This document shows, one piece after another, positions 5,057 through 46,503 of a stretch of DNA of 64,000 bases. Source of the stretch: Pseudomonas sp. TH41 (lineage in GTDB: Bacteria; Pseudomonadota; Gammaproteobacteria; Pseudomonadales; Pseudomonadaceae); NCBI RefSeq assembly GCF_016650695.1, contig NZ_JAEKFH010000001.1, positions 186,001-250,000 on the forward strand, written 5' to 3'. Under the pieces are notes generated by a model that saw nothing but the letters and a program-made list of their open reading frames with translations, was not told the DNA's origin and ran no database searches. How positions within the stretch are numbered: position 1 is the stretch's first letter; every line of letters starts with the position of its first letter. The translations under genes were made by a program, and so were the position numbers.

Positions 5057-5283
5057 GGGGTTACCCTAATGCCAGTCAGTTAAGAAAATCTGAGGCGAAA
5101 CACGCTCTTGGTAGCAGCTGGCGAAGCCTGCGTTCGGCTGCGCAGCAGTCGTAAAACCTGAGCGCGAGGTCTTCCTGAAACACTGCGTTGCCTGATTTCA
5201 CGACTGCTGCGCAGCCGAACGCAGGCTTCGCCAGCTGCTACAGATCGCGTTACGGCTTAACTGACCGGCATTAGGGGTTACCC
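5057..5283. mobile_element. Composite palindromic element, copy 1 (MITE-like)
   Basis: The element proper is 5067-5273. Its ends are 18-bp inverted repeats: TAATGCCAGTCAGTTAAG on the left and, read inward from the right, TAATGCCGGTCAGTTAAG (17 of 18 identical). The same 10 bases GGGGTTACCC lie directly outside both ends (5057-5066 and 5274-5283), like a target-site duplication. Inside is a 131-bp palindrome (5111-5241). A second copy in the opposite internal orientation lies at 18453-18658. It codes for nothing recognisable. This looks like a non-autonomous element carrying a REPIN-type core. Confidence 0.75.
5111..5241. repeat. Large REPIN-like palindrome (GTAGCAGC type), copy 1
   Basis: Two perfect 42-base inverted arms starting GTAGCAGCTGGCGAAGCC and ending at the mirror GGCTTCGCCAGCTGCTAC, separated by a non-palindromic spacer of 47 bases. 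The inner half of each arm reads TTCGGCTGCGCAGCAGTCGT, unlike the other two copies in this window. Transcribed, it would form a very stable hairpin. It sits upstream of the NRPS-like gene and downstream of msrA. Confidence 0.9.
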
Positions 5284-5860: not shown

Positions 5861-6688
5861 TTATTGGTTACCGATCGGGGTATTGAACTGGTCGGAATAA
5901 TTGCCGGTCATGAGAGAGGTCGCGACTCTATCCGACCCTACGCCAACGCGAGACACATACGCAAGACGGGCAGCACTCACTTTATCCGCACCATCGGAGG
6001 CAACCGCCCCGGCGCCGACATGGTCCGATCCGTCAGAGGCAACCGCTCCAGCACCGACATGGTCCGATCCGTCCGAGGCAACCGCCCCGGCGCCGACATG
6101 GTCCGATCCGTCCGAGGCAACCGCCCCGGCGCCGACATGGTCCGATCCGTCCGAGGCAACCGCCCCGGCGCCGACATGGTCCGATCCGTCCGAGGCAACC
6201 GCCCCGGCGCCGACATGATCCGATCCGTCAGAAGCAACCGCCCCGGCGCCGACATGATCCGATCCGTCAGAAGCAACCGCTCCAGCACCGACATGGTCCG
6301 ATCCGTCAGAGGCCACCGCTCCAGCGCCGACATGGTCCGCGCCATCGGAGGCCACCGCTCCAGCGCCGACATGGTCCGCGCCATCGGAGGCCACCGCCCC
6401 AGCACCGACATGATCCGATCCGTCAGAGGCAACCGCCCCGGCGCCGACATGGTCCGATCCGTCAGAGGCCACCGATCCGGCGCCGACATGGTCCGATCCG
6501 TCAGAGGCCACCGATCCGGCGCCAACATGGTCCGCACCATCGGAGGCAACCCGATTGGCACCTACGCGATCAGAACCACCCTCGGCCAATGCCTGAGCAC
6601 CTGCAGCCCAGACAGCGGTGACGCCAGAGGGCACCACGACCGTTGCCGCGACTGCAAATAAAACGCCTGAAAACAGCTTGTATTTCAT
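5861..6688 (-). CDS. Secreted protein made of 13-residue repeats
   Basis: 275 residues from the ATG at 6688, chosen because GGAG lies six bases before it; a GTG 15 bases earlier is in frame but has no such site. A Sec signal ([21 protein letters not shown], then AVWAAG) is followed by about 16 tandem copies of [13 protein letters not shown], 14 of them intact (residues about 47-228), with Ser/Ala swaps at position 6 and Ser/Ala at position 13. A short non-repetitive tail ends the protein. The 39-bp DNA repeat also keeps both other strands' frames open, so the long antisense frames here are by-products. Function unknown; a periplasmic or surface structural role is only a guess. Confidence 0.75.
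6005..6550 (-). repeat. 39-bp tandem repeat, 14 units
   Basis: Fourteen head-to-tail 39-base units encode the VASDGxDHVGAGx repeat of the secreted protein. Units differ by a few substitutions only (GTCCGA/GTCAGA and GGCGCC/AGCACC variants), and runs of four neighbouring units are identical, which points to recent expansion. Copy number should vary between strains without breaking the frame, because the unit is a multiple of three. Confidence 0.9.
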
Positions 6689-7006
6689 GATCTTCTCCAC
6701 CACCCGCTAGCCGCAAAGCAATTGAGCACAGCCCACCGTTCGACCCTTGGCGACACGACCCATTGGCTCGGGATTGATTACGTTGTGATAGGCACGGGCG
6801 CACCACAAAAGCGCACGGGTGTCGACAATCTGCATGACGCTTGAATAGCTGACTGAAGCAGTATAGATCCGTGGCTTTTCAATGGTTGAATGGTTGATGG
6901 ACGGGTTGACCTGGCCTGATGACCTGAACCAATGGTGTCGATTCGCGAAGTTTCATGATGTTCATTAGGCTGGGAAACCCAGCGCAGCCTGCGCTGGGTG
7001 CCGGGG
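6689..7006. other. Intergenic, 318 bases
   Basis: Contains the promoter region of the repeat protein on its left side and the terminator-like hairpin of ohr at 6977-6999. I see no convincing coding frame or repeat in it. Confidence 0.5.
6977..6999 (-). terminator. Hairpin downstream of ohr
   Basis: ACCCAGCGCA pairs perfectly with TGCGCTGGGT across a three-base loop, eight bases past the ohr stop codon. Read on the minus strand it is followed by only two or three T residues, so it is a weak intrinsic terminator or an mRNA-protecting stem. Confidence 0.6.
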
Positions 7007-18452: not shown

Positions 18453-18658
18453 TAATGCCAATCAGTTAAGCCGTAATGCGATCTGTAGCAGCTGGCGAAG
18501 CCTGCGTTCGGCGGCGAAGCCGTCGTGAAATCAGCCGATGCGGTACATCAGAAACACCTCGTGCGCAGGTTTTACGACGGCTTCGCCGCCGAACGCAGGC
18601 TTCGCCAGCTGCTACAAGAAGCGTGTTGCACCTGAGATTTCTTAACTGACAGGCATTA
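18453..18658. mobile_element. Composite palindromic element, copy 2 (inverted)
   Basis: 206 bp, ends TAATGCCAATCAGTTAAG and, inward from the right, TAATGCCTGTCAGTTAAG. The segments between ends and core are the reverse complement of those in copy 1 (AGATCGC.TTACGG on one side, an AAATCT..ACACGCT stretch on the other), so this copy lies in the opposite orientation. Bordering sequences GCATATCGG and GCGTATTGG match at 7 of 9 positions, perhaps a decayed direct repeat. The palindromic core is about 18492-18616. Confidence 0.72.
18492..18616. repeat. Large REPIN-like palindrome (GTAGCAGC type), copy 2
   Basis: Perfect inverted arms of 42 bases starting GTAGCAGCTGGCGAAGCC; the inner half reads TTCGGCGGCGAAGCCGTCGT in both arms, where copy 1 has TTCGGCTGCGCAGCAGTCGT. 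The arms thus changed together. It lies between the ligase gene and the convergent LysR gene. Confidence 0.88.
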
Positions 18659-46372: not shown

Positions 46373-46503
46373 GTAGCAGCTGGCGAAGCCTGCGTTCGGC
46401 GGCGAAGCCGTCGTGAAACCTGTGCACGAGGTGTTTCTGATGCACCGCGTCGGCTGATTTCACGACGGCTTCGCCGCCGAACGCAGGCTTCGCCAGCTGC
46501 TAC
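46373..46503. repeat. Large REPIN-like palindrome (GTAGCAGC type), copy 3
   Basis: 42-base inverted arms like copy 2 (inner half with GGCGAAGCC). It is followed by AGATCGCGTGGCGGATGGCATT, which keeps part of the inner border of copies 1 and 2, but the 18-bp outer ends are missing. Either the ends decayed or this is an independent core. Confidence 0.9.

Follow-up and report, generated by a model that had tools for sequence, protein, structure and literature searches.

The window analysed here, a 64-kb stretch of Pseudomonas sp. TH41 DNA, contains two copies of one element (copy 1, 5067-5273; copy 2, 18453-18658) in which 18-bp inverted ends and two unequal arms (26 bp and 14 bp) enclose a 131-bp GTAGCAGC palindrome. 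This raises the question of whether the unit is a REPIN, spread by its RAYT, or a transposable unit that has captured a REPIN and is moved by another transposase, as the sequence-only reading had suggested. Copy 1 is 207 bp long, non-coding and too short for a transposase. Its palindrome, with 55-nt arms of 91% complementarity, begins GTAGCAGC on both strands; as in a REPIN, it consists of two GTAG-tagged REPs in inverted orientation that form a hairpin. Around it, the left end TAATGCCAGTCAGTTAAG matches the reverse complement of the right end, TAATGCCGGTCAGTTAAG, at 17/18 positions, and GGGGTTACCC flanks both ends as a perfect (10/10) target duplication, confirming the nested palindrome, ends and direct repeat that had been noticed there. 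As a REPIN has no further inverted ends or duplication, the unit taken as a whole is more than a REPIN alone.

Copy 2 had been described as having the same ends and an inverted core. The ends are indeed the same; inversion of the core as a separate event was rejected, because the whole interior including the subterminal arms is reversed, making copy 2 the same element in the opposite orientation. No convincing target duplication was found at copy 2, the best candidate matching at 8/11 positions. Copy 1 is on the downstream side of a methionine sulfoxide reductase gene, and copy 2 is flanked by two convergent genes, one glutamine-synthetase-like and one LysR. At 46373-46503 the window has a third palindrome (L059), which is without the ends, with best flank matches of 8/17 and 9/17. 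Over the window, the end pattern was matched four times at up to three mismatches, vs 0.13 expected. Also in the window, a minus-strand open frame at 5861-6703 encodes a protein of many repeats (17 protein letters).

Table 1. Positions of the parts of the two element copies in the window.
Feature	Position	Strand
Copy 1, left target duplication GGGGTTACCC	5057..5066	
Copy 1, left 18-bp terminal inverted repeat, IS4-subgroup type	5067..5084	+
Copy 1, long subterminal arm, 26 bp	5085..5110	+
Copy 1, 131-bp GTAGCAGC palindrome, REPIN core	5111..5241	+
Copy 1, short subterminal arm, 14 bp	5242..5255	+
Copy 1, right 18-bp terminal inverted repeat	5256..5273	-
Copy 1, right target duplication GGGGTTACCC	5274..5283	
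Copy 2, terminal inverted repeat (element in opposite orientation)	18453..18470	+
Copy 2, short subterminal arm	18471..18484	-
Copy 2, 131-bp palindrome	18485..18615	-
Copy 2, long subterminal arm	18616..18640	-
Copy 2, terminal inverted repeat	18641..18658	-

An insertion sequence (IS) with the same terminal repeat, which the sequence-only reading had recommended looking for, was found in the IS4 subgroup. Thirty Pseudomonas IS loci were fetched; both ends had 0 mismatches to the 18-bp pattern in seven (L099, L101, L108, L109, L119, L122, L127), one end in three more, and many of the others carry a sister end type, TAATGCTGTTCACTTAAG. L101 is a shortened copy, and the other six full-end elements are 1426-1429 bp long. 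The two IS proteins scanned contained Nterm_IS4 and DDE_Tnp_1 domains and both scored above the NCBIfam IS4 cut-off; a gene with Nterm_IS4 was present in 21/249 genomes of the genus. By blastn, the E. coli IS4 transposase gene was matched at ~67% identity, the alignment covering 66% of the IS; in three of the four E. coli IS4 loci fetched (L268-L270) one end reads TAATGCCAGTCAGTTAAG and a duplication of 12 to 14 bp is present. No ends with duplication were found in the fourth, a frameshifted copy. In L099 (487-525) and comparable copies of the IS, one of the two ends, AATGCCAGTCAGTTAAGCTGACTGGCATTTTT, forms a hairpin of its own with T-rich DNA after it; an IS4-subgroup IS may bring its own terminator, replacing the one split on insertion.

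Across the whole host genome the end pattern gave 42 matches at up to two mismatches, vs 1 for a reversed control pattern. Twelve two-ended copies were identified (ends at up to three mismatches, copies with large inserts left out), ten of them with the GTAGCAGC palindrome (197-207 bp) and two of 155 bp with a different REPIN, GTAGGAGCGAGCTTGCTCGC. Their duplications were perfect in 3/12 and within one mismatch in 5/12, the other 7/12 having at least two mismatches. We also started from the palindrome. The genome search gave 128 GTAGCAGC arm matches, and loci fetched from among the matches listed held 49 two-armed palindromes; when an end was scored as a match of at least 13/17, ten of these had both ends, 14 had one and 25 had neither, and the reversed end pattern occurred at 0/98 flanks. 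Absence of the ends from other palindromes, which the sequence-only reading had named as evidence against itself, was therefore half borne out: the GTAGCAGC palindrome also exists without IS4-type ends.

Several composite copies in the host genome are apparently interrupted by other mobile elements. In L047 (1285-2842) a 342-aa gene, presumably resembling an IS110-family transposase gene, separates the REPIN from one of the IS4-type ends, and in L037, L046 and L048 foreign sequence begins soon past the end, as if these had been interrupted in the same manner. Nested palindromes were seen in L038, L045 and L048 (position 6715), where a GTAGGAGCG REPIN lies within the loop of the GTAGCAGC palindrome.

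The 42 vs 1 end matches, together with the likeness to IS4-subgroup ends, point to an IS4-type MITE, and the unit has several of the attributes of one: ends matching an autonomous IS, short length and many copies, a duplication of about one helix turn (copy 1) and an empty site (L040, below). Judging from sequence comparison, we consider it probable (roughly 80%) that 5067-5273 is a non-autonomous IS4 element built around a REPIN and moved in trans by an IS4 transposase, by cut and paste, into hairpin targets. The existence of an IS4-subgroup IS with 0-mismatch ends thus supports the earlier proposal of a transposable unit with a captured REPIN, mobilised by a transposase other than a RAYT.

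The host genome contains no IS4-subgroup transposase, as judged by matches to PF13006 and to alignment A1; the autonomous partner is present elsewhere in the genus. Eight other transposases of the host genome that match DDE_Tnp_1 were rejected as mobilisers, as their loci held no end-like match at up to three mismatches except for a relic at L130; two of the eight, rechecked at up to four mismatches, again gave no end-like match. The relic (L130:519-536) is of the sister type, TAATGCTGTTCACTTAAG, and stands alone in the host genome. Only 9/35 composite-bearing genomes gave any IS4-group match, several of these matches being fragments, and there was no IS4-subgroup match in G224, which has 45 composite copies. 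If the 249 genomes of the transposase search are those numbered G000-G248, four genomes by our count had both transposase and composite vs about three expected, which is no enrichment. With IS4 matches in so few composite-bearing genomes, the case for the mobiliser is built from ends, duplications and target choice.

To examine target choice, 84 IS loci (80 plus the four from E. coli) were searched, blind to the target, for inverted ends with a duplication; 54 succeeded, and the 30 that gave none were dropped. The restored target formed a hairpin of at least 7/9 pairs in 47/54 insertions (7/54 scored below 7), compared with 2.3% of 2700 random sites from the same loci, and was terminator-like (a hairpin with an A-run and a T-run) in 43/54, compared with 2/2700 controls. 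Pairing scores averaged 7.13 at the duplication centre vs 1.4-3.1 at all other offsets to 15 bp; over the 54 insertions the dyad of the hairpin falls on that centre. A small number of genomes (Acidovorax temperans, Xanthomonas arboricola) contributed many of the loci, and the sample is one of insertions in several genera, not of lineages. By sequence, IS4-subgroup copies are mostly at the centres of terminator-like hairpins, terminators here being defined by shape only. An IS4 insertion reportedly lies in the pheST attenuator, and the target of IS231A is said to be GGGN5CCC. In the titles and abstract openings listed by searches of the open-access literature no IS was said to target terminators, the nearest reports being PMC2266710, PMC1525189 and PMC9208149. 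Such a target rule (terminator-like hairpin centre, 43/54) would let a bacterial transposon land safely downstream of genes. The window sites are weak hairpins (6/9 for copy 1, 5/9 for copy 2), and 1/12 copies in the host genome reached a hairpin score of 7.

Composites of this kind were then sought in 298 Pseudomonas genomes. Exact end pairs occurred 191-221 bp apart in 12/298 and 97-157 bp apart in 23/298; by our own count the two lists combine to 32/298 genomes with IS4-ended elements, at up to 45 copies. REP heads of GTAG/GTGG type were present on both strands in 40 of 48 distinct interiors (three of them from the host genome), on one strand in seven and on neither in one (L291), while flank windows of the same length had them on both strands in 15/2880 and on one strand in 147/2880. 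Several REP classes are represented among the interiors, and in L139 the head pair faces outward. Counting independent captures from the arms is not claimed, several arms being alike by eye.

Exact duplications flanked 24 of 45 composite copies in other genomes. The targets of these 45 were hairpins in 20 cases and had a REP head in the duplication in 17 (mostly GGGCAAGCCC or GGGCTTGCCC); 34 had one or the other, against 58/2700 controls, and 11 had neither. REP heads therefore occur both inside composites and in their duplications, making REPs both cargo and target. In G142 (10 copies) and G224 (45 copies) the composites were alike over the 80 bases compared, among the copies listed, and for the one copy examined per genome the duplication matched at 10/10 (L274) and 9/10 (L292) positions. 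Look-alike composites at many sites, with duplications of their own, suggest that the composite as a whole has moved.

The empty site that the sequence-only reading had predicted in relatives was found at a sister copy, L040 (duplication GGGTCGATGCC). In 28 of its 29 best relatives (297/298 genomes matched somewhere in the query) the site was empty, with the target intact in single copy; the junction was gap-free in 27, and in one there was an extra T beyond the target. In the 29th, G150 (L308), the L040 position is occupied by another GTAGCAGC element of this type. For copy 1 of the window, a search of 38 genomes gave best relatives matching one flank only, and no syntenic site was found in the 12 loci read.

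These data bear differently on the other ways in which such a unit could have arisen. That the RAYT spreads the whole as an enlarged REPIN, with the IS4-like ends as passengers, fits the RAYT gene that adjoins a GTAGCAGC REP in the host genome, the lack there of an IS4-subgroup transposase, and the 25/49 palindromes that must have spread or survived without ends. (At L182 the GTAGCAGC REPs flank the RAYT on a single side; at L184 both sides carry a related type, at three mismatches.) We nevertheless regard it as very unlikely, since the outermost conserved bases are the IS4 ends, followed by duplications mostly of 10-13 bp that are centred on hairpins or REP heads, like those of the IS itself, and since the L040 empty site is cut exactly at the IS4 ends. 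To our knowledge, RAYT insertion does not leave such duplications.

REPINs could instead have inserted into IS4-derived MITEs that had already spread, the composite itself hardly moving. The variation of REP heads between genomes, with some arms alike by eye, would agree with this, as would shorter forms with a collapsed REP and ends 37-96 bp apart, seen in 9/298 genomes. However, all nine retain a REP head or remnant (by a loose head list), and no REP-free MITE was seen among them, the searches having covered end spacings of 37-157 and 191-221 bp; the look-alike composites at many sites in G142 and G224, with duplications at L274 and L292, also speak against it, and we think it unlikely. In three short composites (L327, L331, L332) the REPIN hairpin is down to a few bases, as if deleted or excised. 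REPs recombine readily, and some host copies have no duplication, so recombination, with no transposition at all, of REPINs with either solo IS4 ends or chance palindromes was also considered; given the exact duplications, the L040 empty site, the near-fixed lengths and the 42 end matches vs 1 in the control, it is scarcely credible.

Under the preferred reading, a REPIN-bearing IS4 MITE, an IS4 transposase would bind the 18-bp ends, excise the unit and insert it into a hairpin-forming target through cuts staggered by 9-14 bp around the centre of the dyad. The REPIN would travel as a passenger, with a RAYT route of its own besides, and the mobilising IS would since have been lost from the host genome. 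The REPIN could have come to lie inside either by many entries or by one ancient union with later turnover of the REPs. We suggest more tentatively, and at somewhat less than even odds, that a single vehicle serves two unrelated transposition systems: REPINs would be recurrent cargo between IS4 ends across Pseudomonas, the transposase would find its targets by the dyad structure of the DNA (terminator hairpins, REP heads, perhaps extruded cruciforms), and REPs would serve as cargo and landing site alike. REPINs are abundant non-coding repeats of Pseudomonas, and the accessible text of PMC3116915 (2011) regards the mechanism of their spread as central yet unresolved; models of that spread would have to change if there were a second, conventional route by cut and paste. 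No REPIN-IS4 composite was found in the titles and abstract openings listed by searches of the open-access literature.

Among known systems, the element is closest at its ends to IS4 itself (E. coli insG) and to the IS4 subgroup of the IS4 family, sharing the 18-bp end pattern, duplications of 9-14 bp and the same kind of site. It differs in being too short for a transposase and in carrying a REPIN, and composites elsewhere also use REP heads as targets. REPs as landing sites are already known for the IS4 family: the part of PMC1525189 available to us describes ISRm22 in REPs in Sinorhizobium and, in a table, 3/11 IS4 copies in REPs in Shigella flexneri. In those cases the IS lands in REPs, whereas the present element also has a REPIN inside. 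Its core, like a REPIN, is a pair of GTAG-tagged REPs in inverted orientation, and a GTAGCAGC REP of the host genome adjoins a RAYT gene; around this core, however, the window unit has 18-bp IS4 ends and a target duplication, and the available portions of PMC3116915 and PMC3733652 mention no such ends. MITEPsy1 and MITEPsy2 of Pseudomonas syringae are likewise short and non-coding with inverted ends, but according to the available text of PMC3189936, in which IS4 does not appear, those ends are ISPsy2-like and ISPsy30-like (Tn3 family), and there is no REPIN cargo. In P. putida and P. fluorescens, degenerated GTAG-1 units joined to unrelated SLSs occur in hundreds of copies, as described in the accessible part of PMC3733652; there, as here, a REP is joined to another inverted repeat, a likeness drawn from their description, which is as flanks of RAYT genes.
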